NCBI GenBank assembly: GCA_018241505.1
Contig: JAFEDS010000022.1
Location: forward strand, 1-64,000
Direction of reading: 5' to 3'
Length of the DNA: 64,000 nt
Source: Pseudomonadota bacterium
GTDB taxonomy: Bacteria > Pseudomonadota > Gammaproteobacteria > Steroidobacterales > Steroidobacteraceae
Shown: positions 11,478 to 33,289 of the stretch, piece by piece
Layout of the letters: the number at the start of each line of letters is the position of its first letter
Numbering within the stretch: position 1 is the first letter of the stretch
Position numbers and translations under genes: made by a program
Notes under the pieces: model-generated
Seen by the model: only the letters and a program-made list of their open reading frames with translations
Database searches by the model: none
What the model was told of the DNA's origin: nothing

Positions 11478-11571
11478 GGTACACCCCCACGCGGCGTGTC
11501 GTTGACGCATGTGGGTTGGATGATAGTCGAATGGGCGAGCCGATTTAGCATGTGCAACGCACCAACCGCGG

Positions 11572-13824: not shown

Positions 13825-16800
13825 TTAGCGGAACTTTTTGCCGACTTCAATGAAAATCACCCGCCCACGCACATCCACGCGGCTGGCATCAAAAAACTCA
13901 ACGTGGCCTGCCGTGTTATCAATGAACGGAAAGGTCTTGTCGAAGAGATTGCGGGCACCCCCCGTGACCGTCAGACCGTCGAGCCAGGTGTGGGCCGCGT
14001 GATACTGATACGAGCCGGTGAGATCCACCGTGGTGTAGCCGGCCACCTTCTCCATGATCTGAGAACCTGAGCCCGCCGGCGGGTTCAGGATCGCTGAGGT
14101 CGGTACCGTGTTGGTGTAACTCGAGCTGGTACGCACGAATAGATTTACCGCCCACGTCTCCTGCGGGCTGGCCCAACCTGCCCGCAAGGTTGCGCGCCAG
14201 CGGTCCGGGCCGCGGAAAGTTCCCACCAGGTCATTCAGCGCCGCTGCGGCATCGACCTGCTCATCGAACCTCGAGGTATAGGCCACGGAGGTGCCGAGCG
14301 TAAAGTGCTGCGCAAGCAGGTTGAAATAATAAGTGGCATCCATGCTCCAGACACGCGATGTCTGTCCGGCGAGGTTGATGTTCCGCAGGTACACGTCGGT
14401 CAGATTTCCATTGGCATCGCGCGCCGTCACACCGGGAAAGATGTCCGGGTGACTCACAAAGTAGGACGGATCCTGGCCGAAGTAGGTATAGGCACCGATG
14501 ATGCGGTCGCTGAAGCGCGTATCGCTGTAGGTGAGCGATGTGTTCAGGCCGTTGCCCGCTGAATCGACGTGCTGCCAATCGATACCCGCGGTCCAGACCT
14601 TCGCTCTTTCCGGCCCCAGGTCCTGGGAAGCCGGATACGATACATTGACATGAACCTTCTTCGCTCCGCCGGGTGCCAGGGGATCGATGACATCGGTCTC
14701 GTACGCGTAGTTGATCCCGGCCAGATCATGGACCACGGGCGCGCGGAATGCCTTGTTCCAACTCGCGCGTAAGCGGATCTCCCGCAGCGGTTTCCACGCC
14801 AGTCCAATCATGGGAGTGGTCGCGGAAAACGACCGCATGTGGTCCTCGATGCCGTCGTAGTTGAAGTCGCCGCTGGCCGAGTATCGGTCCCAGCGCGCGG
14901 CCAGGGTCATATCTAGCTGTTGCCCCGTCGCTGGGTTCAACAGGGGCACCGCAAATTCAGCGCCGAGCGCCTGGGCAGTGCGCTGACCGTTCGGTTGGTT
15001 GGGGCCGAAACCCGCCCAGTCGAGCGTGTCCTTGCGCCATTCGCCGACAAAAGACGCCTTCACGGCTCCCGTCGGCAGGTCGAACAATGCCCCGTCCGCC
15101 TGGGCGGAGAACTGCGACATGTTGGATGTGATCTTGTTGTCCGGCTTGCCCATCCAGTAACTCACCAGATTGCGCAATGTGGCAGGATTTTGCGCGCTGC
15201 CGTTGCCGAACAGATTGAGCGCCGTCTGCGGATTGGGGTCCGCGAGCGCGGCGGCCACTGCCGCAGTTGAGGTTTGCACCCACGTGTAGGTCGCCAGGGA
15301 CTCCTCGGCCGCCCGGCTCCCATAGATCTGCATTTGCCAATCGTGCGGCAACGAGATATCGGCGCCGAAAGTGCCCTGCCACAACCGCTCGTTCGCTGCG
15401 CGGAAAGTCGACGGAATCGAGCCGGCATCCCGTTCGGTGTCAAACTGATACGTCACCGCTACCGGCTTGCCGAAGGGGTTGAACGCATTCGTCGCGGGCA
15501 CCACAGCCGAATACAGGTTCAACGGCCATTCGTAGTTGCTGGCGTCATTTCTCGAATAGATGGCATCCACAAACAGCCGTACCGACGCGGTCACTTCCTG
15601 TTCGGCATTGATGTAGACCGCCGTATCCTTCAGTTCCGGCGTGGCGTATTGCGAAATCTGCGATGCCGGCACTATGTTGGCCGGTGATACGTCGGCGGGG
15701 GTGAATTGAGTGCCGGAATTACCCGCCGGCAGCGAACCCAGGCCGTCGATGATACCCGTTTCCCCGAACGAGATCGACCGCAGATCGTAGCCACCGCGAC
15801 TGCGGAAGTCCTGGGTTGTATATCCCAGGCTTCGCGACGTGACCGGATCCATCTTGCGATAGCTGGCCACCCCGGTGAACCGGCCGGAGCCCCAGCCAAA
15901 GCTCAGATCCTGCGATACCTGGGTGGCATTGCCGCCGTTGCTGCTGTCTTCGTAGGCGGCTCGCGTGTTGGTCTCGAAGGCTGAGCGCTTCTTGAGGATA
16001 ATGTTGACGACACCACCCACCGCGTCCGCACCGTAAATTGCCGCCGCGGCGGTCGGCAGGACCTCGACCCGCTCAATGGCGCTGGTGGGGATGGTACCGA
16101 CGTTCACCGAGTCTCCGAACAACACCGAGGAGTTGGCGGTGCGCCGGCCGTTGATGAGCACCAACGTGGATTTGGCGCCGAAGCCGCCCAGGTTGACGGT
16201 TGAATGGCCGATGGAGCCGCCCGGCGCCAGGTTGTTGATATCCATGGCCTGCATCGAGCCCATGCCCGAAACCTGCGGAATGGATCGGAACACATCGTCG
16301 GTGCTCAACAATCCCTGCTCTTCAATGTCCTTGCTGGTGATGGTGTAGACCTGGGAGGCGGGATTGTCGTGGCCGCGAATACGCGTACCGGTCACCACCA
16401 CCTGTTCCAGGTTGGCCGACTCGGCAGTAGCCGCCGGCGCCGCGGCGCTCGTGCTGTTCAGCGGAACAGACGCGACATCCGTTGAAGTGCCCGCCTGAGC
16501 CAGGCGAAAGGTGTCGGAAGAAACATGCTTCCCCTCCTTTGCGGGAGACGAAGTTCGTGCGCCGCCCTGCGCCGTCGTCGCGGGAACGATCAGCACAGTC
16601 TGTTCATCGAGATACCGGTAGGTGAGCCCGGTGCCGCTCAGAAGCGCCGTCAACGCCTCGGCAGCCGTCAGGTCGCCGGAGGCGCCGCCGGTGCTTTGGT
16701 CGTGCAGGTCTTCCGAAACATACACAACATGCAAGTCACGCAGTGTCATCAACTGTTGGAGTGCAGTGTCGAGACCTTGCGCGGGAATTTCGGTGTGCAG

Positions 16801-16884
16801 TTTCATTGCCGCCGCGGCTGGATCCGCGACCGCGAGGCTGATCAACGACAGGCTGGCTGCCGCCGCAACAATAGTCAGGCGCAT
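13825..16884 (-). CDS. TonB-dependent receptor with N-terminal STN signalling domain
   Basis: Outer-membrane transducer/importer of 1019 aa. I start at the ATG at 16884, preceded by GGGGGAGAG and followed by a clear signal peptide. Residues about 27-100 form a secretin/TonB short N-terminal domain (EIPAQGLDTALQQL) that touches FecR. A low-complexity linker, TonB box (EQVVVTGTRIRG), plug (VEVLPTAAAAIYGADAVGG) and beta-barrel ending KFR follow. This plug type (RIPQVSGM, INGRRTANSS) is common in receptors coupled to peptidases. Directly downstream of fecR and upstream of the S9 peptidase, so its signal is probably a peptide. Confidence 0.93.
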   Translation of the reverse strand: MRLTIVAAAASLSLISLAVADPAAAAMKLHTEIPAQGLDTALQQLMTLRDLHVVYVSEDLHDQSTGGASGDLTAAEALTALLSGTGLTYRYLDEQTVLIVPATTAQGGARTSSPAKEGKHVSSDTFRLAQAGTSTDVASVPLNSTSAAAPAATAESANLEQVVVTGTRIRGHDNPASQVYTITSKDIEEQGLLSTDDVFRSIPQVSGMGSMQAMDINNLAPGGSIGHSTVNLGGFGAKSTLVLINGRRTANSSVLFGDSVNVGTIPTSAIERVEVLPTAAAAIYGADAVGGVVNIILKKRSAFETNTRAAYEDSSNGGNATQVSQDLSFGWGSGRFTGVASYRKMDPVTSRSLGYTTQDFRSRGGYDLRSISFGETGIIDGLGSLPAGNSGTQFTPADVSPANIVPASQISQYATPELKDTAVYINAEQEVTASVRLFVDAIYSRNDASNYEWPLNLYSAVVPATNAFNPFGKPVAVTYQFDTERDAGSIPSTFRAANERLWQGTFGADISLPHDWQMQIYGSRAAEESLATYTWVQTSTAAVAAALADPNPQTALNLFGNGSAQNPATLRNLVSYWMGKPDNKITSNMSQFSAQADGALFDLPTGAVKASFVGEWRKDTLDWAGFGPNQPNGQRTAQALGAEFAVPLLNPATGQQLDMTLAARWDRYSASGDFNYDGIEDHMRSFSATTPMIGLAWKPLREIRLRASWNKAFRAPVVHDLAGINYAYETDVIDPLAPGGAKKVHVNVSYPASQDLGPERAKVWTAGIDWQHVDSAGNGLNTSLTYSDTRFSDRIIGAYTYFGQDPSYFVSHPDIFPGVTARDANGNLTDVYLRNINLAGQTSRVWSMDATYYFNLLAQHFTLGTSVAYTSRFDEQVDAAAALNDLVGTFRGPDRWRATLRAGWASPQETWAVNLFVRTSSSYTNTVPTSAILNPPAGSGSQIMEKVAGYTTVDLTGSYQYHAAHTWLDGLTVTGGARNLFDKTFPFIDNTAGHVEFFDASRVDVRGRVIFIEVGKKFR

Positions 16885-16999
16885 CAACTCTCCCCCGCCC
16901 CCGGTTGGGCTCGTTTCGCCCGCCGTCAGTGAGTGCGGCGGGTCGCTGCTAGGAGAAGAGCGTTGGGAGATCGAAAAAGGAAACCGCGGCCGCGAAAAT

Positions 17000-18028
17000 C
17001 TAACGTGAGACACGAATCTCATTGTCACTCTGCACGACGGTGGCACCGAATCGCTGCTGCAGCAGCTCGGCGACGCGGCTCGGATCGCTGGACGGGAACA
17101 CCCCGCTCAGGTGGAACTGTTGCAGCTCGCGATCCTCGATGATGAGACGCCGGGAGCTGTAGCGATTGAATTCAGCAACCACCTCGCTCAGCGGGGTCTC
17201 ATGGAATATCAACTTGCCCTGCGACCATGCGGTTGCGACGGCGGTATCGGTCGAATGGGGCGTGCCCAATGAGCGTGGGGACACGCTGATCTGCTCGCCG
17301 GCGGTCACGAGCACGGGGGCCGGCCCATCCGCTTGCTGTTGTTTACGAACCGCGACGGCGCCTTCCAGGACGGTCACGATGGTGCCCCGCTCCTGGCGGT
17401 AAACGTCGAACTGGGTGCCGACCGCCCGGATATCGGTTGAGCCACTGTGGACCACAAAGGGGCGCGCCGGGTTGTGCGCGACACGGAAGATGGCCTGGCC
17501 CTGGATGAGATCGATGTTGCGCTCGGCCGCCGAGAATCGCACTCGCATGCGCGAGTTGGCATTCAACACCACGGCCGAGCCATCCGCCAGGGCGATGGTT
17601 CTTTGCTCGCCTGTGTCGGTGACGTAGATATCGCGGCGAAACTCCAACCAGGCCAGTGCGACCAGCAGCAACAGCGTGCTGGCGGCGATTGCAAAACCAA
17701 CGTGCGGACGCCGGCGAACCGGGACAGAGGGAGTTGGCGCAACGGGCGGCGCGGTAGCGAGATCTAGCTCTACGACATTGCCGCTATCGCTCGCCTGCTT
17801 CAACAAGCCGTCCAGATCGAAGGCAGTCGAGCTCTTCAACGCGCCCGTGTCTTCCCAAACCGCCGTCATCCGCAGAAAGGCATGTACGTTCTCCGGTGAC
17901 TTGCGCACCCAGGCATGGAACTCCCGGCGAGTGGATTCGTCGCCATCACGCTCGCGCAGGGCTACGAGCCATTCCGCGGCTTCAGCGCGCGCTTGGGGTG
18001 ACGGACCGGTGGAGGAATTCAGCGGCAT
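17000..18028 (-). CDS. FecR-family transmembrane anti-sigma/signal transducer
   Basis: A 342-aa inner-membrane protein from ATG 18028, 8 bp after the sigma-factor gene. The N-terminal cytoplasmic part carries the DUF4880/FecR_N pattern (AAEWLVALRERDGD, FHAWVRKSPENVHAFLRM). One transmembrane helix lies near residues 105-125 (VGFAIAASTLLLLVALAW). The periplasmic FecR domain (QRTIALADGSAVVLNANSRMRV, FVVHSGSTDIRAVGTQFDVYR) is followed by a C-terminal STN-like fold (FSRYSSRRL, LSGVFPSSDP). It relays receptor occupancy to the neighbouring sigma factor. Longer upstream frames would overlap the sigma gene and have no homology. Confidence 0.93.
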   Translation of the reverse strand: MPLNSSTGPSPQARAEAAEWLVALRERDGDESTRREFHAWVRKSPENVHAFLRMTAVWEDTGALKSSTAFDLDGLLKQASDSGNVVELDLATAPPVAPTPSVPVRRRPHVGFAIAASTLLLLVALAWLEFRRDIYVTDTGEQRTIALADGSAVVLNANSRMRVRFSAAERNIDLIQGQAIFRVAHNPARPFVVHSGSTDIRAVGTQFDVYRQERGTIVTVLEGAVAVRKQQQADGPAPVLVTAGEQISVSPRSLGTPHSTDTAVATAWSQGKLIFHETPLSEVVAEFNRYSSRRLIIEDRELQQFHLSGVFPSSDPSRVAELLQQRFGATVVQSDNEIRVSR

Positions 18029-18036
18029 GAGCGTCC

Positions 18037-18552
18037 CTACTCCAGTTCGTCGAGGTGTTCGTCGCAGTACTGCATGGCACGCAGCAGGTATTTCCTGGCC
18101 ATCGGGCGCGATACCCCGAGCCGTTGGCCAATTTCTTCGAGAGTGAGCCCCTCGCACCGATACATGAGCAAAGTGGCACACGCTCGCGGCGAGACGGCCT
18201 CCAGGCCGCGGCAGACCCTTTCAATGCGGTCACGGATATCGAGCTCCTCGGCCGGGTCGGCCGCAATATCGGGCTCCGCGACCATCTCCAGAGGGTCCAT
18301 GGTTTCGGGCCGCCGGCTCTTTTGCAGGGCATGCTGATGCAGAACGTGGTTGGCAACCGTGTAGAGGTACGCCTGGGGATTGCGGACCGCCTCGTGATCC
18401 TTGATTCGCAGCAGGCGCAGGAAAATTTCCTGCATTAAATCAGGCACATCTGCTGCCGCGTGACGCAATCGCACGGACAGGAAGCGACGTAGCTGGCGCC
18501 CGTGCGACTCGGCTACGTTGGCCATGAACGCCTGCTTTTTCTGATCGGCCAC
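18037..18552 (-). CDS. ECF sigma-70 factor (FecI-like)
   Basis: Extracytoplasmic-function sigma factor, first gene of the sigma-FecR-receptor-S9 operon. Region 2 is seen in VPDLMQEIFLRLLRI and NPQAYLYTVANHVL; region 4 in LEAVSPRACATLLMYRCEGLTLEEIGQRLGVSRPMARKYL, a typical FecI-like helix-turn-helix. I favour the GTG at 18552 with GGGAG just upstream. The in-frame ATG at 18582 adds 10 Arg-rich residues without a ribosome site. It should direct transcription of the receptor gene when the ligand is bound. I could not identify its own target promoter with confidence. Confidence 0.9.
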   Translation of the reverse strand: MADQKKQAFMANVAESHGRQLRRFLSVRLRHAAADVPDLMQEIFLRLLRIKDHEAVRNPQAYLYTVANHVLHQHALQKSRRPETMDPLEMVAEPDIAADPAEELDIRDRIERVCRGLEAVSPRACATLLMYRCEGLTLEEIGQRLGVSRPMARKYLLRAMQYCDEHLDELE

Positions 18553-18633
18553 GGGTCTCCCGCGCAGATGAGTCCTGCGCATTTACATTAGAGCGATTCC
18601 GGGGCCGAAAATGAAACCAAACCGACAGCGTTT

Positions 18634-19209
18634 TCAGCCGAGGTGCGAATCGGCTGCAGGTGTGCGCGACAGCCAATGGCGAACAACCCGCTTGCCCACC
18701 AGGTTCACCACAGAGGAAAGGGCCATGAGCCGCAGGTCGAACCAGAAACCCTGGCGGCTGAGATAGAGGCGCTCGAGCCGGCCGCTGTAACGAGCGCTTC
18801 TGCCCGCGAGGAGCTGTGAAAGGCCGGTGACTCCGGGCCTGGCCGCGAACCGCCACTCGTGACTGCGATCCGCCCAGCCAAGACGCCGTAGGTCTTCAGC
18901 AGTGAGGGGCCGGGGCCCGATGACGCTCATCTCTCCGCGCCAGACATTGATGAACTGCGGCAGTTCATCCAGCCCCGTCCGGCGCAGCCAACGGCCAACG
19001 CGCGTGACCCGATGATCGCGCATGGTCCTGAATTTGAAGACCGTGAAGGGCCGGCGTCGTTGACCAACACGGGTCTGCAAAAACAGGGGCGATCCGCCGT
19101 CCTCGAACCAGGTCGCCAACGCTATGCCCGCTGCCAGCGGGGCGAATACCACTAATGCCGTGCCTGCAGCTATCAGGTCAACGGTCCGCTTGCCCGCATA
19201 AGGTTGCAT
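18634..19209 (-). CDS. Initiating sugar-phosphate transferase (monotopic phosphoglycosyl transferase, WcaJ/PglC-like)
   Basis: A 191-aa enzyme moving a sugar-1-phosphate from a nucleotide sugar to undecaprenyl phosphate, the first step of a surface glycan. From ATG 19209: a re-entrant membrane helix (VDLIAAGTALVVFAPLAAGIALA), then the family blocks SPLFLQTRVGQ, FTVFKFRTM, RRTGLDELPQFINVWRGEMSVIGPRP with the Asp-Glu catalytic dyad, and a C-terminal RPGVTGLSQL. It is a short, minimal PGT without the large N-terminal domain of WbaP/WcaJ. It is divergent from the cystathionine-lyase-like gene and close to a Wzx-like flippase, which supports a glycan or glycolipid pathway in this region. Confidence 0.9.
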   Translation of the reverse strand: MQPYAGKRTVDLIAAGTALVVFAPLAAGIALATWFEDGGSPLFLQTRVGQRRRPFTVFKFRTMRDHRVTRVGRWLRRTGLDELPQFINVWRGEMSVIGPRPLTAEDLRRLGWADRSHEWRFAARPGVTGLSQLLAGRSARYSGRLERLYLSRQGFWFDLRLMALSSVVNLVGKRVVRHWLSRTPAADSHLG

Positions 19210-19324
19210 CGATCGCCCTCGCTCGCTCCAGTCGGCAGGAGCAGATTGAATGCAGATTGGGGCACCGCTCGGGCGCAATTCAGGCAAATTATGGCTCAAT
19301 CACTCACCACACGAGGCACGGACC

Positions 19325-20479
19325 ATGACGCGGCACTGGCGCACCCGACTTCTGCATACCAATGCGCACGTACCTGAGGGCTTCAAGTCGCTCGCCACGC
19401 CCGTTTACCGAGGCTCTACAGTGCTGTTCGATCGTCAGGCTGACGTCGCCGATCAATGGCATGCCGACAAGGGCTACGCTTACGGCCTGTATGGAACGCC
19501 TACGGTCCTCGAGCTCGGCGCCCGCGTTGCGGAGCTGGAGCAAGCTCGTCACAGCTTTGTCGTACCCGGAGGGCAGGCTGCCATCGCCTTGACCTACCTC
19601 GCGAGCTGCAAAGCAGGCAGCCACGCACTGGTCCCCTGGAACGCCTACGGACCCAACCGCGAAATGGGAGAGGGTTTGTTGCGTGCCCTCAATATTGAAG
19701 TGGAAGCGTACGATCCGATGTTGGGATCTGGGATTGGGCAACTGATCCGCCCCAACACAGCGTTGATCTGGTGCGAGAGTCCAGGTTCCGTCACGATGGA
19801 GATTCAAGACCTGCCGGCAATTGTCGGCGCCGCGCATGAACGCGGAGTGACCGTGGCGTTGGACAACAGCTATGCAGCAGGCGTATTGCTCGATGCATTT
19901 GCCATGGGCGTGGACATCAGCATACAAGCGATCACGAAATACATTGGCGGACACAGCGACGTGCTGTTAGGAACCGTGTCTGTGCGCGACGAGCGGACAT
20001 ACGAGACCGTCGGGTCCACATGGGCGCAGCTCGGTATGGCCGTTTCCCCGGATGATTGCAGTTTGGCGCTGCGGGGTTTACAGACACTGGGCGTGCGGCT
20101 GGAGCGGCTGGAACGGTCGGCGCTCGAGTTGGCACGTTGGTTGGCCGATCGGCCCGAAATTGCCTGCGTTCTGCATCCCGCCCTGCCCTCATGCCCGGGT
20201 CACGATATCTGGCAAAGGGACTTCGCAGGGTCCGCGAGCATCTTTTCCATTGTGTTTGAAAAGCGCTATAGCAAGTCACAAGTGGCGTCCTTCATTGACG
20301 CGCTCGAATTGTTCCAGATCGGCTTTAGCTGGGGTGGCGTCGCGAGCCTTGCGGTGTCATTCCCCGATCTCAAACGTCCCGGCATCGATTACGAGGGGCG
20401 TCTGGTACGCCTGAATATCGGTCTCGAAGAGGTGGCCGATCTGCGGGCTGATCTCGAGGCGGCGTTCAGGAAGCTGTAG
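19325..20479 (+). CDS. metC: Cystathionine beta-lyase-like PLP enzyme (Cys/Met metabolism family)
   Basis: A 384-aa fold-type I PLP enzyme. The start at ATG 19325 (MTRHWRT) removes a longer leader that overlaps the divergent transferase promoter. Family features: ATPVYRGSTVLFD, YGLYGTPT, the Lys that binds PLP in AITKYIGGHSDVL, and SWGGVASLA near the C-terminus, as in cystathionine beta-lyases (MetC), which split cystathionine to homocysteine, pyruvate and ammonia. The gene lies between two surface-glycan genes and its 3' end overlaps the flippase gene by 14 bp. It might therefore serve the biosynthetic cluster rather than methionine synthesis; this is conjecture. Confidence 0.85.
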   Translation: MTRHWRTRLLHTNAHVPEGFKSLATPVYRGSTVLFDRQADVADQWHADKGYAYGLYGTPTVLELGARVAELEQARHSFVVPGGQAAIALTYLASCKAGSHALVPWNAYGPNREMGEGLLRALNIEVEAYDPMLGSGIGQLIRPNTALIWCESPGSVTMEIQDLPAIVGAAHERGVTVALDNSYAAGVLLDAFAMGVDISIQAITKYIGGHSDVLLGTVSVRDERTYETVGSTWAQLGMAVSPDDCSLALRGLQTLGVRLERLERSALELARWLADRPEIACVLHPALPSCPGHDIWQRDFAGSASIFSIVFEKRYSKSQVASFIDALELFQIGFSWGGVASLAVSFPDLKRPGIDYEGRLVRLNIGLEEVADLRADLEAAFRKL

Positions 20480-21920
20480 TCCACGCACGCCTGGCAACGA
20501 GGGCCGCAACCCGCTCGAGCAGATGCGGCTGGAGCACCACCGTCAGGAGGTACAAGGCCAGGGCAACCGCCGCTACCCACATGTGTGAAGCCCCGCGCGC
20601 CTCGGCAATCGACCCGGCAAGCGCGAAAATCCCCGCAGGTAGCGCGGACCTCGCCCAATCCAACGTCACAGCCCACTGCCGGCCCGGCAGGACAACACTC
20701 ACCGAAGCCGTCCGAAGCACGACCGCCAGGAAATAGACAGCTACGCCGGTCCAACACGCGCCCGGTAGTCCCCAAATCGTCACCGACCACGCGCATGCCG
20801 GTATGAAAAGCGCCGCCTCCACGCTCTTACCGAGCGCGTCGAGCTGCGCACGACCTACTGATTGCAGCAACGTTCCCATCTGGATAGCCGTGCAACGCAG
20901 GACCGCGATCAGAAACAAGGGTACGAGCAACGGGCCAGCCGCGGTCCAATGGTCGCCCCCGAGCAGGCTGACGAGCTCGTCCCGCAACAACACAGCGGGC
21001 AGGAGTCCGGCGCACAGAAGCGCGGTCGTCGGAACCAGCACACGCCGAAGTTGGTCTGCCAGAACGGACGCACCATCATCCCGATGCCGGGCGAATGCGG
21101 GCATGGCTACCGAGTTTACAACCGTTTGCAGCATTTCCACCGGAAGCGCCGCAAGGCGATAGGCAAACAGATACAGACCCAGCGCCGCCGGTCCCAGAAT
21201 TCGACCCACCAGGTAATTGTCCACTTGCGTGGTCACAAACGTCATTGCGGTGACGATCGCAATGTAGCGACTCTGGGCGAAGCCACGCTGAAACGAGGCA
21301 CCATCCCATGCGAACCGCGGCCTGTAGGGGTGGATGACATACGAGGCCAGTGTTGTAAGAGCCGCACCGCAAAGAAACCCGATCACTAGCACCCAGGGCG
21401 AAGGCAACGACCACGCGAGCGCGGCTGTGATCAGCAAGCCGACGAGATCACTGCCCAATCGAGCCAATGCCAGCGCACGCTGCTCCAACTGGCGATATAA
21501 CAGCAACGAGCCTGGACTAGCCAGCGCAGCGACGATGAGCCACGCGCTTGAAACAACGAGCAGTGGAATCAAACGGGGCTCGTGCACAGAGGTTGCGTAA
21601 GGGACCGCGAAACAAACCACCAGCACAGCGAGAATGATACTGCGCAGCAGATGCGCGGTCCATGCCGTGTCGAGAAAGCGGCGCTCCTGCCCGGCGTCCT
21701 CGAATTTCGCAACAATAATGAGCCGGGCGAACCCTAAATCCGTGAGTGTCGAGAGAGCCGACAATGCGAAGAACACCAGTCCGAACAGGCCAAAATCATC
21801 CGGCGACAACAGGCGGGCCAGGAGCGCTGCGCGGCCGACCGTGATGAGCGTGCCCCCCACTGTCGAGACGGCCGTCCAGGAAAGAGCACGCAATTCGCGG
21901 GTCGCGGTGGCCACTGTCAC
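20466..21920 (-). CDS. Oligosaccharide flippase (Wzx/MOP superfamily)
   Basis: A 484-aa polytopic membrane protein with about 12-14 hydrophobic helices and the Polysacc_synt pattern (GRAALLARLLSPDDFGLFGLVFFALSAL). It should flip a lipid-linked glycan or glycoconjugate across the inner membrane. The GTG at 21920 overlaps the NRPS stop codon (GTGA), showing translational coupling to the NRPS. The longer frame to 22064 has an Arg/Cys-rich leader lying inside the NRPS gene and is unlikely. It is the third gene of the FkbH - NRPS - flippase operon. Its presence argues that the NRPS product is attached to, or exported like, a lipid-linked molecule. Confidence 0.88.
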   Translation of the reverse strand: MTVATATRELRALSWTAVSTVGGTLITVGRAALLARLLSPDDFGLFGLVFFALSALSTLTDLGFARLIIVAKFEDAGQERRFLDTAWTAHLLRSIILAVLVVCFAVPYATSVHEPRLIPLLVVSSAWLIVAALASPGSLLLYRQLEQRALALARLGSDLVGLLITAALAWSLPSPWVLVIGFLCGAALTTLASYVIHPYRPRFAWDGASFQRGFAQSRYIAIVTAMTFVTTQVDNYLVGRILGPAALGLYLFAYRLAALPVEMLQTVVNSVAMPAFARHRDDGASVLADQLRRVLVPTTALLCAGLLPAVLLRDELVSLLGGDHWTAAGPLLVPLFLIAVLRCTAIQMGTLLQSVGRAQLDALGKSVEAALFIPACAWSVTIWGLPGACWTGVAVYFLAVVLRTASVSVVLPGRQWAVTLDWARSALPAGIFALAGSIAEARGASHMWVAAVALALYLLTVVLQPHLLERVAALVARRAWTTAS

Positions 21921-24900
21921 CCGCGCCTCACACGAACGTCGTGGCCTGGCTTCAACATGCCATCGATGGCGGCGGCGACGCGCACAACATGGGGCTCCCC
22001 CACGGCCTGCCTGTGATCGCAAGGCAAACGAACCACCTCGAGATCGTGGCAGACACGGTTCCAACCCAACGCGCTCGGTAGCCGCGAGTAGCCACGAATG
22101 TGCCGCTCGGCGGCGAACAACGCGACCTTGCCTGTGTAAGGCGCGGGCCGCCAGTCGAGCGCCTGCCGCCCGAGCTTACGCATTTCCTCATCGTCAATCA
22201 GCGGACGGCCCTCGCCCAGGTCGGGCTCTTTCGCCTGAGTCCCGGTAATACGAGAGAGTTGATCCGTGAGCCAGATACGCCGGTCGGACCATGAAAATCG
22301 CAGGAGCTCCGCCATCCGAAAGCGTAATTTCTCAACGCCTTGCGGCAACGGCTGCGGCACACCCGCATCGAGGAGAACGACCGCCCGCACTTCGCGGCCG
22401 GCGGCCCGAAGCTGGGCTGCCATTTCCATGGCCAGGACTCCGCCAAGCGAATAGCCACAGAGAATCACAGGACCCGGGCAGGCCTGGACCAACTCGCTCG
22501 TGTAGGCCGCACAGCGGTCCTGAATGGAGTTATATGAAACGCTCGAATTGATTGCCGCCTGGAGTCCGTACAACGGGGTGTCCGAGTCGATGTGCACCGC
22601 AAGCCTTGCATAAGGTGCGAGGTGTCCGCCGATCGGATGAACAAAGATCACCGGGATTCGCCCAGGTCCCTCGCGCATCGTCAACAGGTGCCGCACACTG
22701 CGTAGCGTCGATCCCAATTGCTGCAGACGGGCAGCCATGCGGCGGGGAGTTGCATGCAGGAACAGCTCTCCCGTCGTCAGCTCGTGAGCGCGAGCCCGTG
22801 CCAGCCGAGCCATCAGGCGCAAAGCGCCGAGCGAGTCGCCACCCGCCTCAAAAAAGTCGGTATCGAGCCCGGCCGGAACGCCGAGCATCTCGGTGAAATG
22901 GTCCATCAACTCGGCTTCCAACGCGGATGCAACGTCAGTCGAGGACGCTTCGTGTTCTCCCGGTGGCAGAGGCTGCGCCGCGAGGCGGCGGCGATCGGTT
23001 TTGCCGTTTGGCGTGAGAGGAAGTTGGTCGACCTGCAGGAAGTGATAAGGCAACATGGTGTCGATGAGCCAAGCGCGTAGCCGCACGCGCAAATCCGCGC
23101 TGTTGGGTAAGGCGATACCCTTCTTGGCGACGAGGTAGGCAACCAAGCGCCCGTCGCCGCTGTTGGGTCGATGCAGGACGACGGCAGCTCGCTCTATCTC
23201 CGGAAGCCGCAGAATTGCCGCCTCCACCTCACCGGGCTCGAGGCGAAAGCCGCGCAGCTTGATCTGTTCATCGTTGCGACCGAGAAACTCCAGAGTGCCA
23301 TCGGGCAGCCACCGGGCGAGGTCACCGGTTGCGTACAGTCTGTCTGCAGGATCCGCAGGATCGGAAATGAACCGCTCTGCATTGAGCTCGGGTCGTCCAA
23401 GGTAGCCGCGCGCGACCCCGATGCCACCGATATACAACTGACCCACGACGCCCAGTGGCAGCGAGCGGCGGTTTTCATCCAACACGACCATCTTGGTGTT
23501 GGCGATGGGCCGGCCAATGCGGACAGCCTGGACATCCTGTGGAATCTTCCACGCAGAAGACCAGATCGTGGTCTCGGTGGGGCCGTAGACATTCCAGGCT
23601 TCACCGCACCGGTGTACCAGCTCCTGCGCCAGATCGAGCGGCAACGCCTCGCCCCCCACCAGCGCCTTGAGCTTCTTGTTTCCCGGCCAATCGGTCGCGA
23701 ACAAAGCACGCCACGTGGAGGGCGTGGCCTGCAGCACCGTCGCTTGCGAGCGCAGGAGGGCCTCCGCCAGCCGCGAACCGTCGCCTGCCTCTTGCGGCCC
23801 CGCCAGATAGATCCGAGCGCCGACGAGCAGCGGCAGCCAAAGCTCGAGACCTGCTATGTCACCCGAAATGGTCGTCAACGCCAGGAGCACATCGGTGCGC
23901 TCGAGCCCGGGTTCACGCGCCATGCTGCACAGCAGGTTGACTAGCGACCGGTGTGTAATCTCAACGCCCTTGGGCCGGCCGGTAGACCCGGAAGTATAAA
24001 GAACGTACGCAAGCGACTCCGGTGCGCAGTCCTGCCAATCATCTGAAACCGGCCCTACCGCACCCAGCGGCTCATCAACGCATAGAATGGTAGTCCCGGG
24101 CGCAACGGGGGGAGCACTGCCCTTTCGGCTGCGAGTTGTCAACAGAACCCGGGGTGCGGCGTCCTCGATCATGAACGCCAGCCGATCGCCCGGAAAAGCA
24201 GGGTCGAGTGGAATGTACGCCCCTCCGGCAATCAAGACCCCCAACATGGATTCCAGCATGTAGGCGTCACGTTCAACAAACAGTCCGACCCGCTGATCGC
24301 GTCCCACTCCCGCGGCACGCAGCCGCGCGGCCAGGCCTTCAGCCCTTTGCCACAGCTCACCGAAGGAGATGCAGGTCCCATCCACTTCGAGAGCCGTCGC
24401 GCCCCAGTGTTGAATTGCGGATTCGTGCAACAGGGAAACGAGAGTCCGGTCCGCCGGGAAGCTCACTGTTGTGTCATTCCACTGCGCCAGGCGTGCCCGG
24501 TCTGTCTCCGACAACCAGGCGATTGAAGCGACGCTGGCGCTCGGGTCCCGACAAAGTGCGTACAGAGCCGTCACCACACCCTGTGCAAGGCGAGCGAGAT
24601 CGCCGCAGTCAAACTGCGCGCGATTGCCGATCAGGACCAGCGAGTATGAGTCGGCGAGCTCTTCGACCGTCAAACCAATCTCATAGTCGGCGTGCTCTGC
24701 GTCGAGCTCCAGGGATTCGAGCCGACCGCCCTGAAGTTGCCGGGCTTCGCAGCGGACCAGGTGAGTAAACAACGTGCCAAACAAATCGGGCCGGCGCCGG
24801 CCGAGATTCAACGCTTTCAGGAGCCGTTCGTGCGGGATGCGCCCCCAGTTGGCCGCCTGCGCAAACGCCTCGCGATTTCTCCGCAGCAATTCCTCGAAGC

Positions 24901-27286
24901 GCGGATCCAAGGAGAGGTCTGCGCGCATCGGCACCGGTGACATGAAGAGACCGATACACTGCTCGTCGCCCTCATCCCAACGGGTACTTTGATCGACAAC
25001 CACGACGACATCGCGCTCGCCACTCCAACGCGCCACCGTGGCCTGCCATGCGGTGAGGAAAATCGCAGCACTGCTGCTACGTTGACTTCGCGCGAGCTCC
25101 CGTAACGGGTCAACCAACTGAGCCGGTAAGGCGTGCCGCAACCGGAGCGCCGAACTATCCCCGGAGGCACTCGGGGTCCGGTAGGACGAATGAGATTCCT
25201 CCGGCGGGTTCTGCAGCAAGCTGCGCCAATAGTGCTCCACTGCAACCGAATCGGCGGCCGCGAGCTGTTCGCGCTGCCGCTGTGCAATCCCCGAGAATGT
25301 CTGGCGCAGGGGAGTTAGACCCTGGTGGGCAGCCACGCCGCTGCGTAGATTGCGTTCAATGATCGCGAGCTCGCGCCAGAATATTTCTTCAGAGGTGCCA
25401 TCGAATGCAATGTGATGGATGGTGAGCCAGAGCTCCCAACCGCCCGCCTCCTCTGCCGTCGGCACGAGCGACACGCGTAGGGGCAAGCTGGATTTGAGAT
25501 CGATAGGAGTGGTGCGTTCAACCTCTCTAGCTGCGACACGTTCCTGCGGCGTCATGGCGCTGCGTTGGTTGACAACCAGCTCGCTCGCCGGGCGGATGTC
25601 CAATAGCGCGTCACCCTCGTCTGTTCCAACAAATCGGCAGCGCAGAATTTCATGACGGTCCGCGAGAGACACGAGGCAGCGCGTGAGCAACTCCGCCGAA
25701 ATCGGTCCCGACCCCCGATAGGGACGGAACGTTATATACGCTGCGTCGCCTGGCGCAATCAGAAAAGAACGCCACATCCAAGTCTGATAGGGCGATATCA
25801 GGCCCGGCATGTCCTTTCCTGGCGTTACAGATGCTCTGCGGGGTTGACTTGCCTGCACCCGGAGCGCTTGATCGTCAATCGAAGCGTTGCGTTCGCGGGC
25901 GGCACGCCAAAGCGCCGGCCATGCTTCGCACAGAGCGCCGTATTGTCCAACCAAACGCCGAGCCGTTGAAATCGAAGTACGCGCATCCTCGCACGCGACG
26001 TCGACAATCCAAGGTACCGCTGATGATTCTGCTTGTGCGGCAGCTCGCTCACAGAATCGCTCAACATCATTACGCCAGTAGGCGGGAAGGTCGAGATGTT
26101 CCGCGCGCGTCAGCGCGTCCTCAATCAGTCGATGTTGCAATCCACGTCGCCTCTCCAACAGTGATTGCGCGAAGCAATCATCACTTTGTGCAGCGACCTC
26201 CCTGAGGTAGCGACCTGATGCGGCGACGCCCTGATCGGTCGGACTTCCATCCAAGAACGAGGCAAACACTCCACAGAGATCGAGACTGGTAGCTGCACGC
26301 AGAAGGTCACCGCCGTGAAAGCGACGCGCGGACGCGGGCTCGTGCGCCACTGCGATGGGTAGCCATACAGAAGGAGCACCTTGCAAGCGTTCAACCAGAG
26401 CGCTGAAAAGGATGTCTTGACCACGACCCACCGGTAGAAAAGGTGGCAGCTCCGTAGTTGCATCGATTCCAAAACACGTACTCATGCCAGGCGCACCGTG
26501 AGCGAGCTGCGGCCTGCTCGTGGCCCGAAGGAGGCGTCGGGTTTGCACCACGCGCGCCCAAGTTTCGGCCGAAGCGGTGAGACGGGCGAGTGTCGATCCG
26601 TTCAGCAGCAGGTAGCCCAGGGGCTGCCCCCAAAATCCAAACGGCGCACTCCAGCCACAGTCACCCGCCAGCCCGGCGAATGCCAACGGAGCGGGTCGAC
26701 CTTTCGCAGCACTTTGCGCCCACGCCGACTCGATACTCCCAACGAGTCCCCCTGTTGGTTGACGGCCGGATGAGAGTCGCCAGGACGTGAAGTCACCGTC
26801 ATCGGGGACGAAGTAATCGGACGGATCGCCGTGCGCGACAGTGTCCAGAAGCGGGGCGACGGGATCGAAATCCGGATGGGCGTGAAGATCCGCCAGAGTG
26901 TCATCATCGGTACTGAGCAAGCGATGTCCCGCGCCCCACAGGAGCACGGCATTTCGATTCGCGCCCGCGGCTGGCGGCTGGCTCGCTCGATGAAACAGCG
27001 CAAATTCGAGTACCGCCGGATCGACGCCGCTCAAACGTTTGAGCACTTTGGCCATCGCCAACTTTTCGGTGAGACCCACATAGCGCACGTCGGAATTTGC
27101 CGTCGTGGCTGTACGCAGGGCGTCAATCACCGCTTGCTGTTGCGATTCTGACTTCGGCGTGTGAAACACAATCAGCGGGAGGCCCTGGCGGTGACACGAC
27201 AGGTGAGCGCCGAAAGATTGCACGGCACGCTGTAGTTCGACAGGCCGTTGCGCGGTGGGGATGGCGACGAATTTCACGGCAATCAA
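21917..27286 (-). CDS. Hybrid NRPS: glycosyltransferase-like domain - C - A(Gly?) - T - TE
   Basis: A 1789-aa single-module megasynthase. Residues 1-460 form a GT-A-like domain (GANRNAVLL, then LLSTDDDT at 124-129 as a candidate metal-binding DDD). Condensation domain about 490-900, with active HHIAFDG at 624-630. Adenylation domain about 935-1435: YTSGSTGRPKG, VYGPTETT, TGD, RGFRLEPGE, NGKTDRRR with Lys1429. By eye the specificity residues read D-I-L-Q-V-G-V-I-W-K, close to the glycine code. Thiolation domain with Ser1485 (GGDSL). Thioesterase about 1545-1775 with Ser1613 (GYSLGG), Asp1640 and His1758. It starts 4 bp inside the end of the FkbH gene and overlaps the flippase start. A C domain preceding A implies that an acyl donor is supplied in trans, probably the FkbH carrier protein. 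Confidence 0.92.
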   Translation of the reverse strand: MIAVKFVAIPTAQRPVELQRAVQSFGAHLSCHRQGLPLIVFHTPKSESQQQAVIDALRTATTANSDVRYVGLTEKLAMAKVLKRLSGVDPAVLEFALFHRASQPPAAGANRNAVLLWGAGHRLLSTDDDTLADLHAHPDFDPVAPLLDTVAHGDPSDYFVPDDGDFTSWRLSSGRQPTGGLVGSIESAWAQSAAKGRPAPLAFAGLAGDCGWSAPFGFWGQPLGYLLLNGSTLARLTASAETWARVVQTRRLLRATSRPQLAHGAPGMSTCFGIDATTELPPFLPVGRGQDILFSALVERLQGAPSVWLPIAVAHEPASARRFHGGDLLRAATSLDLCGVFASFLDGSPTDQGVAASGRYLREVAAQSDDCFAQSLLERRRGLQHRLIEDALTRAEHLDLPAYWRNDVERFCERAAAQAESSAVPWIVDVACEDARTSISTARRLVGQYGALCEAWPALWRAARERNASIDDQALRVQASQPRRASVTPGKDMPGLISPYQTWMWRSFLIAPGDAAYITFRPYRGSGPISAELLTRCLVSLADRHEILRCRFVGTDEGDALLDIRPASELVVNQRSAMTPQERVAAREVERTTPIDLKSSLPLRVSLVPTAEEAGGWELWLTIHHIAFDGTSEEIFWRELAIIERNLRSGVAAHQGLTPLRQTFSGIAQRQREQLAAADSVAVEHYWRSLLQNPPEESHSSYRTPSASGDSSALRLRHALPAQLVDPLRELARSQRSSSAAIFLTAWQATVARWSGERDVVVVVDQSTRWDEGDEQCIGLFMSPVPMRADLSLDPRFEELLRRNREAFAQAANWGRIPHERLLKALNLGRRRPDLFGTLFTHLVRCEARQLQGGRLESLELDAEHADYEIGLTVEELADSYSLVLIGNRAQFDCGDLARLAQGVVTALYALCRDPSASVASIAWLSETDRARLAQWNDTTVSFPADRTLVSLLHESAIQHWGATALEVDGTCISFGELWQRAEGLAARLRAAGVGRDQRVGLFVERDAYMLESMLGVLIAGGAYIPLDPAFPGDRLAFMIEDAAPRVLLTTRSRKGSAPPVAPGTTILCVDEPLGAVGPVSDDWQDCAPESLAYVLYTSGSTGRPKGVEITHRSLVNLLCSMAREPGLERTDVLLALTTISGDIAGLELWLPLLVGARIYLAGPQEAGDGSRLAEALLRSQATVLQATPSTWRALFATDWPGNKKLKALVGGEALPLDLAQELVHRCGEAWNVYGPTETTIWSSAWKIPQDVQAVRIGRPIANTKMVVLDENRRSLPLGVVGQLYIGGIGVARGYLGRPELNAERFISDPADPADRLYATGDLARWLPDGTLEFLGRNDEQIKLRGFRLEPGEVEAAILRLPEIERAAVVLHRPNSGDGRLVAYLVAKKGIALPNSADLRVRLRAWLIDTMLPYHFLQVDQLPLTPNGKTDRRRLAAQPLPPGEHEASSTDVASALEAELMDHFTEMLGVPAGLDTDFFEAGGDSLGALRLMARLARARAHELTTGELFLHATPRRMAARLQQLGSTLRSVRHLLTMREGPGRIPVIFVHPIGGHLAPYARLAVHIDSDTPLYGLQAAINSSVSYNSIQDRCAAYTSELVQACPGPVILCGYSLGGVLAMEMAAQLRAAGREVRAVVLLDAGVPQPLPQGVEKLRFRMAELLRFSWSDRRIWLTDQLSRITGTQAKEPDLGEGRPLIDDEEMRKLGRQALDWRPAPYTGKVALFAAERHIRGYSRLPSALGWNRVCHDLEVVRLPCDHRQAVGEPHVVRVAAAIDGMLKPGHDVRVRRG

Positions 27287-29295
27287 CTCACTGGCAACTC
27301 ATCATCGTAGAGGGACTGGACTCGATCGAAGAAACCCTCGTCGGCGGGTGCCGATTGCGCCTTCTCCAGCCTCGCAAGCTCCAACAGGTCGGCCACATCG
27401 GCCCGGTAGAGAATCGCGCCGATGGATATTTCGAGTGCGAGCGCACTTTTCAGCCGCGCCAGCAGGCGCACGATCTTCAAGGAGTCGCAACCCAGCGCGT
27501 AGAGATTGTCACTGCGCGAGACCGGCCGGCCAACAACATCGGCGATGACGGACAGGATGCCCTGCTCGTCCGCCGCAATCGAAGAGTCGGCCGCGACGTT
27601 GGGGGAAAGCCCGAGACTGGCGGCGAGCGCTGCACTATCGCCGGTCAGTTTCGCCAGCGCCGTCCAATCGGGGGAACTACCGCCGGCGGCTTCAGGAGAC
27701 TCGTCCGCGCCCTCATCGACAGCCCTCAGTCGCGGACAACTCGAGAGGCCGTCGAGCAGGAAGCGCCACGTTACTGTCCCGTCAGCAGACGATCGACAAA
27801 CGGCGAGCAACGCCTCGCCGATCGATTTGAGGAATCTTCGAGCCGGCACATTGCGCTCGGTCTCGGCAAACGCAATATCCAGGTACGCCCCTCCCTCATT
27901 TCGCGCCAGCAGGACGAGGGCATCGAATACGTCCTCTTCCACTCCGCGCCCCAAAACACGGCAACTGAGCATCAACCGCTTTACCGTGAGTGCCTCGGCG
28001 GTGCGCTCCAGGAATGCTGAGCCGCTGATCCCGTACTCCCCGAATCGATCGGCGACCTCGACTGCCAACACGCTGCCACCTGCGATGGATTCTGCGACAG
28101 CTTGCGCAGAAGGCCTGTCGGCAGCGGTGTGGAACTGGTTTGTACGTTGCGCCAGCTCAAACAGCCGCGCTTGCTCGCCGCCGCTCGCCAAACGAACCGT
28201 TGTCCGCACGGCAAGGTCCCGAATGTAGTCAGCAAACGATGGCGCTGCGCGAAGTGCGGCGCGCCGCCGCGCTTCATCCTGGTAGAGACGAGTGCGGGAC
28301 TCTCCTAAACCTCCGGCCGCGGTGGAACGCGGGTCGAGGGGCCAGGCGGCCGCAAAAAATCGCCTGACCCCGAATCGAGGGCGCTGCAGGACTGCGACCT
28401 GCCCGCACGCCGACCTGACCTCGGCACACTCGACAGAACTGTCATCAATCAGCACGAACGAGTCGAGAGCGACATTCAGCTCATGAGCCAGCTCGCGCAA
28501 CGCTTCCGACTTTTTGCTCCACCCCACCCGTACGGCTGCAATGTCCGACCAACGCAGGCCCATATCCGCCCGATGTTGGAAGACTGCCTCAACATCCTCG
28601 ACAACATTCTTGCTGACGAGCACGAGCAGGCGCCCACTACGCTTCTGCTCGGCCAGATAGGCGTGCAGCCAGCGCTCCTCGGGACCGATATGCACACCGT
28701 TGGGTCCGACTTCCGCGCAGACTCCCTGCCACAAGGTACCGTCGCAATCGAGGGCAAGTACTTTTGGTGCGGGGGCAAGAAGTGCATGGGCGCGACGGTG
28801 CAAGGCCGTGCCGATGACTGTCAAAACTTCGTCGGTATACGGTACACCCGCAATCAGGAGACTCTCGATGTCAAATACTTTGTGGACGCCGGCAGCGGCA
28901 GCGGCGGCCGATACATCCAACAGCTCCGCGCGTGAGTCTCCTAAAGCCGTCGGATCAGATTTTCCAGCCGCGTCCGGAAACAACGCAACAATGGGCGCGC
29001 GACCGGCGCTCCCTGCACGAAGTACCCCGTTCGGTCCTTCCTCGAGGATCATGCGCAGACCCGCGGGATCCAGCAGGAAAACCCGCAGCTCGTCCGGCGC
29101 GATCTCGGCCGTTGCTCCCCACGACAGCAGGCCGGGACTGTGAACAGTCACGCCGGCAAAGAGCGGCACCTGGCTGTTCCAAAAGTTCAGGACGCGATCG
29201 AAACCAGGCGACTCGAACGATCCATAGACATTCAGCCGCACACACCACTCGATTGGCTTTGCAGATTGAGCCTGTTTTTGGGGGTCCGCCGCCAT
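27283..29295 (-). CDS. FkbH-like HAD-IIIC protein fused to a C-terminal carrier domain
   Basis: A 670-aa protein from ATG 29295 (GAGG 8 nt upstream). An N-terminal FkbH-associated domain is followed by a HAD-IIIC domain (LDCDGTLWQG with catalytic Asp183/Asp185; LIDDSSVE) and the family RTNQFHTA block. The C-terminal 90 residues are an acyl/peptidyl carrier domain (LYALGCDSLKI, phosphopantetheine Ser605). FkbH enzymes normally take a C3 unit from 1,3-bisphosphoglycerate to make glyceryl-carrier protein. Here the Cys usually found before SKN (CSKN) is Val (LVSKN), so glyceryl transfer is uncertain. It probably supplies the acyl donor for the downstream NRPS condensation domain. First gene of the operon. 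Confidence 0.88.
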   Translation of the reverse strand: MAADPQKQAQSAKPIEWCVRLNVYGSFESPGFDRVLNFWNSQVPLFAGVTVHSPGLLSWGATAEIAPDELRVFLLDPAGLRMILEEGPNGVLRAGSAGRAPIVALFPDAAGKSDPTALGDSRAELLDVSAAAAAAGVHKVFDIESLLIAGVPYTDEVLTVIGTALHRRAHALLAPAPKVLALDCDGTLWQGVCAEVGPNGVHIGPEERWLHAYLAEQKRSGRLLVLVSKNVVEDVEAVFQHRADMGLRWSDIAAVRVGWSKKSEALRELAHELNVALDSFVLIDDSSVECAEVRSACGQVAVLQRPRFGVRRFFAAAWPLDPRSTAAGGLGESRTRLYQDEARRRAALRAAPSFADYIRDLAVRTTVRLASGGEQARLFELAQRTNQFHTAADRPSAQAVAESIAGGSVLAVEVADRFGEYGISGSAFLERTAEALTVKRLMLSCRVLGRGVEEDVFDALVLLARNEGGAYLDIAFAETERNVPARRFLKSIGEALLAVCRSSADGTVTWRFLLDGLSSCPRLRAVDEGADESPEAAGGSSPDWTALAKLTGDSAALAASLGLSPNVAADSSIAADEQGILSVIADVVGRPVSRSDNLYALGCDSLKIVRLLARLKSALALEISIGAILYRADVADLLELARLEKAQSAPADEGFFDRVQSLYDDELPVS

Positions 29296-29359
29296 GGCGC
29301 GACCTCGACCGCAGGCTAAGGTAAATTGCGGAAACGGCGGCCGAAACACGTCGCACTCC

Positions 29360-32140: not shown

Positions 32141-33289
32141 ATGCCTAATGTCCTGCTCGCGCTCCTGAGCCGCGAATGGATTGCCCTCGCAGTAGGGATA
32201 GCGCTGCTCGTATCCGGTACCGCGGCTCCGGCCCCAGCGCCGGTGAAATGGGCTTGCGCGATTTTCGGCGCGCTCCTGGCGCTCGGTGGACTGGTCAATC
32301 TCACCCGGATTTCGCGCGCGCGGCGACGGCATCCGCCTCAGGGAAAGCTGTGTAACCTGGGCGGCTATCGAGTCCACCTGCTCGCCGAAGGCAGTTCGCA
32401 TGACAGGCCGCCGATCGTCCTGTTCGGTGGGGGGCACGCCGCAGGGGCTGCGATGATCCACATCCATCGAGCGCTCGTGCAAAGGAACCGCTCGATTCTC
32501 ATTGATCGTCCAGGCACCGGCTGGAGCGACACCGGACCGTTTCCCCGTACGACGGCGCGCGAAGCGCAGGAGATGATGGCCGCATTGGATGCGGCGGGCG
32601 AGTCCGGCCCGTTCGTGTTCGTTGGATATTCATTCGGCGGATTGCTTGCGGCCAATATGGCGCGCCGCTATCCGCAGCGGGTCGCCGCTTTGGTACTGCT
32701 CGATCCAACCCCTCTTGAAACAATTGTGTTCGGACCGCGGTTGGCGGCGCTGCGTCAAATGCGCACGGACGAGTTGAAAACGGCTTTGGCGCGGTTGATC
32801 GGTTGGCCTGCTGATTTCGCCCGCTCGCGGCTGTCCCGCGAATCCGCCGGCGCCGCAGTCAACAACCGGTTCGAAGCGTGCCTCGGCGCGGATCTGGAGC
32901 GGATGCGGGAGTTGGAAGCAGGGGCCGGGCCGCACCTGGCCAACTATTCCATCTATCGCGAATTGTCCCCCACCGGCGCGGCCGCCAGCGGCTGGGAGAC
33001 AGTCGTCTACGATGGCGACCTCGGAGATTTGCCGGTGTTCCTGGTGGCTCCCGGTACCACGGAGGAAATCGGGTCGCTGCCTGAAATGCGCGCTGCACAA
33101 CAAAGCGAAGCACAACGCATGCAACGCTTCTTTGCGCGTACCCGCGAGCGTTACCTGGCCACTTCAACCCGCTCGCAGCGCGTCCATGCGCCTCCCGGCT
33201 CCACACATCAGTTTGTTTACGAGAACCCGGAATTCATTGTGGAGACGCTGCGGGGCATCCTCGAGTCCCTCCCTGGATCGAGGCGATGA
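32141..33289 (+). CDS. Membrane-anchored alpha/beta hydrolase
   Basis: A 382-aa protein with two N-terminal membrane helices (residues about 10-30 and 35-55), then an alpha/beta hydrolase domain. The oxyanion region is IVLFGGGHAAGA, the nucleophile Ser is in GYSFGG, and a His is found in PGSTHQF near the C-terminus. It resembles proline iminopeptidase-like or haloperoxidase-like esterases; substrate unknown. The stop overlaps the start of the DUF885 gene (ATGA), so it is the likely first gene of the peptide-processing cluster that continues to 45.1 kb. Confidence 0.8.
   Translation: MPNVLLALLSREWIALAVGIALLVSGTAAPAPAPVKWACAIFGALLALGGLVNLTRISRARRRHPPQGKLCNLGGYRVHLLAEGSSHDRPPIVLFGGGHAAGAAMIHIHRALVQRNRSILIDRPGTGWSDTGPFPRTTAREAQEMMAALDAAGESGPFVFVGYSFGGLLAANMARRYPQRVAALVLLDPTPLETIVFGPRLAALRQMRTDELKTALARLIGWPADFARSRLSRESAGAAVNNRFEACLGADLERMRELEAGAGPHLANYSIYRELSPTGAAASGWETVVYDGDLGDLPVFLVAPGTTEEIGSLPEMRAAQQSEAQRMQRFFARTRERYLATSTRSQRVHAPPGSTHQFVYENPEFIVETLRGILESLPGSRR

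Follow-up and report, generated by a model that had tools for sequence, protein, structure and literature searches.

We analysed a 64,000-nucleotide stretch of DNA from a bacterium of the Steroidobacteraceae (the window), in which three leftward genes encode an FkbH-carrier protein, a nonribosomal peptide synthetase (NRPS) and a flippase-like protein of the MOP family (Table 1). The stop of the fkbH-carrier gene and the start of the NRPS gene overlap by the four bases TTGA, and the NRPS stop and the flippase start by the four bases GTGA. Because of these overlaps we read the three genes as one translationally coupled operon; a preliminary description had already listed them as overlapping, and they are present as it stated. 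The convergent cystathionine-lyase-like gene that it named is there as well: it lies on the opposite strand, converges with the flippase gene and separates the latter from the gene for a short phosphoglycosyl transferase (PGT), from which it diverges (starts at ~19325 and ~19209, respectively). The same description had counted this PGT as an adjacent, minimal enzyme. The gene is present, but as the lyase gene on the other strand intervenes, the PGT is a neighbour outside the operon, and its membership in the pathway is uncertain. The lyase is probably also a neighbour and unlikely to be part of the pathway. The GC content of the operon is 0.624 versus 0.62 for the window (0.612 in the part for the N-terminal domain of the NRPS), while the third-position GC of the operon genes (0.60-0.70) is slightly below that of four other genes (0.73-0.75).

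Table 1. Genes of the locus and domains of the two enzymes, with positions in the window
Feature	Position	Strand	Evidence and remarks
FkbH-carrier gene	27283..29349	-	GTG start (alternative ATG at 29295); TIGR01686 219.7 bits, PF00550 32.4 bits
FkbH domain (HAD-IIIC glyceryl transferase/phosphatase type)	27811..28773	-	TIGR01686; motifs LDCDGTLW, SKN, LIDD, QRTNQF
Acyl carrier domain (T)	27382..27561	-	PF00550, aa 597-656; Ser in GCDSL
NRPS gene (GT-C-A-PCP-TE, 1789 aa)	21917..27286	-	TTG start; Pfam C, A, PCP, TE
N-terminal GT-A-like glycosyltransferase domain (putative)	25850..27286	-	DDD at 26897-26914, QD at 26411-26428; homologues, models, Foldseek
Condensation domain (C)	24488..25798	-	PF00668 158.6 bits; HHIAFDG
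Adenylation domain (A)	23000..24424	-	PF00501 258.5 bits; code DILQLGVIWK
Peptidyl carrier domain (PCP)	22724..22909	-	PF00550 41.2 bits; GGDSL
Thioesterase domain (TE)	21965..22654	-	PF00975 66.4 bits; GYSLGG
MOP-family (Wzx/TuaB-like) flippase gene	20466..21920	-	GTG start; PF13440 178.3 bits (cut-off 23), PF01943 81.4 bits
Cystathionine beta-lyase-type PLP enzyme gene	19325..20479	+	NF005456 566.7 bits (cut-off 500), TIGR01324 397.4 bits, each above cut-off
Short phosphoglycosyl transferase (PGT) gene	18634..19209	-	PF02397 147.6 bits (cut-off 27); LDELPQ motif

The FkbH-carrier protein belongs to the FkbH family by its TIGR01686 score (219.7 bits versus a cut-off of 146.65) and has an intact HAD motif LDCDGTLW; its gene is the sole FkbH match in its own genome. 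The presence of an FkbH domain together with a carrier domain supports the earlier suggestion that FkbH loads a C3 unit on the carrier, and by analogy with its relatives, from which the predicted activity is carried over, the enzyme would load glyceryl from 1,3-bisphosphoglycerate. Each domain has its textbook catalytic motifs.

The NRPS ends in a termination module in which C, A, carrier and TE follow one another in order and with their motifs (Pfam residues 497-933 for C, 955-1296 plus a C-terminal part to 1429 for A, 1460-1521 for PCP and 1545-1774 for TE), and HHxxxDG, the A core motifs, GGDSL and GxSxG are all intact. This part matched the structures of LgrA, AB3403 (4zxh, E 2.8e-134) and EntF (5ja1, E 5e-123). 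AB3403 and EntF have the four domains C-A-PCP-TE in common with the NRPS of the window; to our knowledge, neither has a glycosyltransferase (GT) domain in front or an FkbH-carrier partner. The ten-residue code of the A domain was taken from the alignment at positions set by GrsA numbering, and reads DILQLGVIWK, which we take to be a code for glycine (one residue off the glycine code). The A domain is thus predicted to be glycine-specific, which agrees with the glycine unit that had been proposed for this NRPS.

Residues 1 to ~480 of the NRPS form an extra domain that was absent from the preliminary description. It gave no significant match in Pfam (best E 0.16), no sequence match in the PDB below E 0.1, and was not covered by NCBIfam among the matches listed (the best 25 of 106 for the NRPS). 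Nor could a named glycosyltransferase family be assigned through its homologues, which reached PF00535 at E 0.0046 and 0.15, under the cut-off. In an AlphaFold2 model of the domain (pLDDT 62.7, pTM 0.71) 173 residues were below 50 and the middle was poorly modelled. A Foldseek search with this model returned weak matches (best E 7.2e-3, none at or below 0.001, TM at most 0.53 among those listed), and the best 50 of 896 (E <= 10) were all glycosyltransferases, as judged by title or by what is known of them. The model of a homologue from a cyanobacterium (L061), which included a further domain described below, was confident (pLDDT 86.8, pTM 0.88), and 44 of its 50 listed matches were glycosyltransferases, mannosyl-3-phosphoglycerate synthase among them and one of the 44 at E <= 0.001. 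The STDDDT and GRGQD sequences of the window correspond to DDDT and (E/Q)D, both of which are conserved across the window and 10 of 10 relatives; we take DDD for the metal motif and (E/Q)D for the base motif of a GT-A enzyme. At the latter, Q replaces the E of the classic enzymes in the window and in nine of the ten. By definition, the window also conforms to the 15 columns that are invariant in alignment A4. The domain of the window is also shorter than its relatives (~25-60 residues are missing and its middle is shortened) and forms a long branch in the GT tree. From the weak Foldseek matches, the two motifs and the confident model of the homologue, we infer that the N-terminal domain is a GT-A-type glycosyltransferase in fold and activity. 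The sugar link that had been suggested for this pathway is therefore supported, since the NRPS itself bears a GT-A-like domain.

A search of genome_contigs with a two-row alignment of the GT domain found L061 (Oscillatoriaceae cyanobacterium), L062 (Candidatus Cloacimonetes) and L063 (a Candidatus Poribacteria bin), and when 195 genomes from the order of the L061 genome were searched by profile, 16 matched, 8 of them at full length, the genome of L061 included. In total there were ten distinct loci (L061-L063 and L086-L092), eight cyanobacterial, one from Cloacimonetes and one from a sponge-associated bin, in which FkbH, carrier and GT are joined in a single protein (1294-1521 aa). Pfam recognised the carrier in the three proteins that were scanned (L045/L063, L061, L062); in the others it is assumed from length and alignment. 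At 8/10 loci an NRPS gene starting with C follows in the same direction, 77-151 bases on. In the remaining two, the L063 contig ends 372 bases after the FkbH-T-GT gene and L092 is without an NRPS at that place. The partner NRPS is C-PCP-TE in L061, C-A-PCP plus a second multi-module gene in L062, and C-A-(PCP)-TE in L086-L089 and L091; in L090 it is cut by the contig end. Hence the order FkbH-T-GT-C-(A)-T-TE recurs in other phyla, although the gene break is shifted from between GT and C in these loci to between T and GT in the window, to which the flippase is added. The A codes of the cyanobacterial partners are DPRHFGFQAK in 5/5 cases (L086-L089, L091) versus DILQLGVIWK in the window, so that their product differs: they have the loading unit in common with the window, but another amino acid. 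L086-L089 have a further NRPS immediately upstream. L045, from genome G330, and L063 are the same DNA (8698 of 8700 bases) in bins of different phyla; the host of L063 is therefore unsure and at least one of the bins is contaminated.

Between carrier and GT, nine of the ten loci (one of them the query itself) have an extra domain of ~90 residues that is absent in the window. Because the other 6 of the 50 listed Foldseek matches of the L061 model were TigE (the best, 6.6e-5) and five heterocyclase rows, which carry RiPP recognition elements (RREs), we read it as a putative RRE/PqqD-like domain; Pfam gave no support for this label. When the flippase, PGT and lyase of the window were used as phmmer queries, no relative was found in the 9-21 kb around 11 loci (the ten FkbH-T-GT loci and L067). 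The preliminary description had proposed that the same gene order be sought in other genomes. Among the genomes searched, the full order occurs nowhere else, and what recurs in other phyla is the domain order of the enzymes.

Do these proteins descend from one FkbH-T-GT unit? In a first FkbH tree (36 rows) the window grouped with the ten GT-fused FkbHs at 100/99. For a second tree (41 rows), 8 plasmid FkbHs were added, L029, L032 and L033, which were long or short, were removed, and L063 was trimmed to its FkbH part; L034 was too short and was left out of both trees. Once the plasmid FkbHs had been added, the clade of the window and the GT-fused FkbHs was gone: none of the 200 bootstrap trees contained it (0%), and the AU test did not reject it (p-AU 0.244). 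We therefore dropped this clade as a result. In the second tree the window lay within the assembly-line FkbHs (19 rows, 100/98), apart from the same-order FkbHs (22/22). The GT tree placed the window and the FkbH-T-GT proteins on one side with a support of just 39/10. A motif, GxxGDC(G/A)WxxPFGxW, was present in the window and in 10/10 FkbH-T-GT proteins and in 0/7 other GT rows; it is partly selected, as L061-L063 were found by a pattern of this or one other motif, while L086-L092 and L045 came from searches by profile or sequence that did not use the motif pattern. Domain order and motifs make it likely that the FkbH-T-GT unit as a whole is of common descent, with independent assembly as the alternative.

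The GT domain is rare, as it was found in 2/60 relatives, 6/369 genomes of the class and 6/398 of the phylum, and with profile A4 (15 rows) in 5/292 genomes of the order and 8/340 of the class, the window's own genome being included in all these counts. FkbH matches, with carrier-only matches counted, were present in 43/296 genomes of the order sample. FkbH and GT-domain matches occurred together in the window's genome alone in the order samples, which are nearly identical in genomes. As a single-sequence query the N-terminal domain had no match in genome_contigs, plasmids or phages; the L045 domain had none in plasmids, and alignment A2 none in viral_contigs. G005 and G258 have a GT-only relative without FkbH. 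In G005 (L051:8789-10124) it extends across two frames, which points to a frameshift or an assembly error, and in G258, of the same genus, it is a single frame of 472 aa. There were also weak GT matches in G496, G725 and G820, and short cyanobacterial matches besides the full-length ones. The match in G496 was set aside as probably due to chance, since the matched frame is, judged by eye, a TonB-receptor-like protein. Further proteins with RRE-like and GT domains are encoded in the class at L048:9495-11531, L056:8496-10463 and L105:8958-10727, and the next frame in L048 and L056 is that of a family-2 glycosyltransferase.

We then compared the locus with described systems. According to three papers, FkbH loads glycerate on a carrier (with 1,3-bisphosphoglycerate as the source by analogy), and sulfotransferase and methyltransferase domains modify it before the next module (PMC6520454, PMC10143770, PMC13122637). 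The dysinosin, suomilide and varlaxin NRPSs (DysB, AerB/BslA) resemble the window in starting with FkbH, carrier and glycerate and in tailoring within the module before C-A-T. They differ in that their tailoring domains are a sulfotransferase and a methyltransferase and their glycosylation enzyme is separate, whereas the window has a GT-A-like domain in this slot, a glycine module and then the TE. The order FkbH, carrier, tailoring domain, C is present in the window over two genes and in 8/10 relatives, and the Pfam scan of the FkbH-carrier protein and the NRPS showed no sulfotransferase domain. The GT-A glycerate glycosyltransferases GpgS (4dec) and MpgS (2zu8), which put a sugar on phosphoglycerate, are fold-level matches of the window and L061 models. 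However, they are free enzymes that act on the free acid, their TM scores are low (at most 0.44 and 0.25 by target), and they have no sequence match to the GT domain. In the passages and titles examined from the open-licence full-text literature, we found no description of a GT between FkbH-T and C.

The reading that we prefer, with a probability of about 0.47 and so just short of even odds, is an NRPS that starts from glycerate and whose loading module contains a glycosyltransferase, together with a flippase that moves the product. FkbH would take the C3 unit from 1,3-bisphosphoglycerate and leave glyceryl on the carrier domain, and the GT-A domain would then add a sugar to a hydroxyl of the tethered glyceryl. 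The C domain would join the glycosylglyceryl to glycine activated by A and held by the PCP, and the TE would release the product. As the MOP flippase is translationally coupled to the NRPS, it likely carries the product over the inner membrane, either as a free molecule or in a lipid-linked form.

Could the NRPS instead decorate a surface glycan, as the preliminary description had proposed? Here the acyl-glycine would be moved by the TE (or C) to a lipid-linked sugar begun by the PGT on undecaprenyl phosphate, the GT would extend the glycan and the flippase would move it for a surface polymer. We consider this unlikely, but not negligibly so. The flippase is of a polysaccharide family and translationally coupled, and a PGT is nearby; moreover, the L045/L063 FkbH-T-GT gene adjoins glycosyltransferase genes, the FkbH genes on plasmids of Streptomyces NBC_00209 and Aquisphaera (L109, L110) lie amid glycosyltransferase and dTDP-sugar genes, and amide transfer to an amino sugar by a C domain has been described for streptothricin (PMC4351081). 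However, the PGT is outside the operon, and of the four PGTs that the genome has, three are larger (frames of 474-505 aa) and located elsewhere. Although the flippase and PGT families are like those of Wzx/TuaB-type flippases with PGT-initiated glycans, the operon has no other recognised part of such a pathway, neither a polymerase nor another glycan gene, and no polymerase of a Wzx/Wzy pathway was recognised among the 28 window proteins scanned (up to 52528). In addition, no flippase, PGT or lyase relative was found in the 9-21 kb around the ten FkbH-T-GT loci, so that a lipid-linked part, if there is one, would be peculiar to the window's genome. Thus, the attachment of the NRPS product to a lipid-linked sugar or glycoconjugate gains from the operon coupling of the flippase and from the GT-A-like domain, and loses by the lack of conservation; it is possible, and conservation does not support it.

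The GT-like domain might also be non-catalytic here or act elsewhere, so that the operon makes plain glyceryl- or lactyl-glycine and the flippase-like protein exports it. The shortened sequence, long branch and poorly modelled middle of the domain would fit this, as would the lack of a flippase-type exporter near the L061 and cyanobacterial clusters. Yet the domain keeps DDD, QD and all 15 invariant alignment columns, and the GC of its coding part (0.612 versus 0.62) is close to that of its surroundings, while an unused domain would be expected to decay; we therefore regard an inactive GT as distinctly improbable. That the operon forms a siderophore-like system with the FecI/FecR/TonB receptor genes (13825-18582) is more improbable still. 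These genes share the strand of the PGT and follow directly downstream of it, but glyceryl-glycine is without the usual set of iron ligands, and the operon has no recognised hydroxamate, catechol or esterase gene. As the genome has 42 FecR matches, a FecR neighbour is to be expected, and we dropped this reading.

The operon is real, and a GT in line with the assembly adds interest beyond what had been described; the glycan pathway is less sure. Sugars on nonribosomal products are usually added after release. If the reading of a glycerate-initiated NRPS with a built-in GT is correct, a GT held in place after the carrier of the starter unit and before the first C domain would mean glycosylation in line, and a class of products would be predicted in which glycosylated glycerate is joined to amino acids. 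Genome mining tools cannot name such a class, because the GT domain is in neither the Pfam nor the NCBIfam results (among the matches listed). More tentatively, FkbH-T-(RRE-like)-GT may be an undescribed class of loading module that glycosylates glycerate in line while it is bound to the carrier, and from which glycosylglyceryl peptides would arise as a family spread over at least three phyla; it would be wired here to a lipid flippase for a sugar-glycerate-glycine unit destined for export or a surface lipid; we would sooner doubt than assert this wider claim.

The combination of RRE-like and GT domains is also found in a protein without FkbH at L047:4092-6637 (G644), which adjoins an exosortase-H-associated membrane protein (NF041730, 186 bits). 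The GT family of L047 may serve exosortase-H systems too, which would link assembly-line and protein-modification settings. Elsewhere in the window, a histidine kinase whose N-terminal domain is ethylene-receptor-like (PF25487 at 134.6 bits) is encoded at 10317-11660. Two DUF885 proteins (33286-34953 and 40325-42019) lie near TonB receptors, an MFS transporter and an M3 peptidase, and this neighbourhood probably serves peptide uptake and breakdown.
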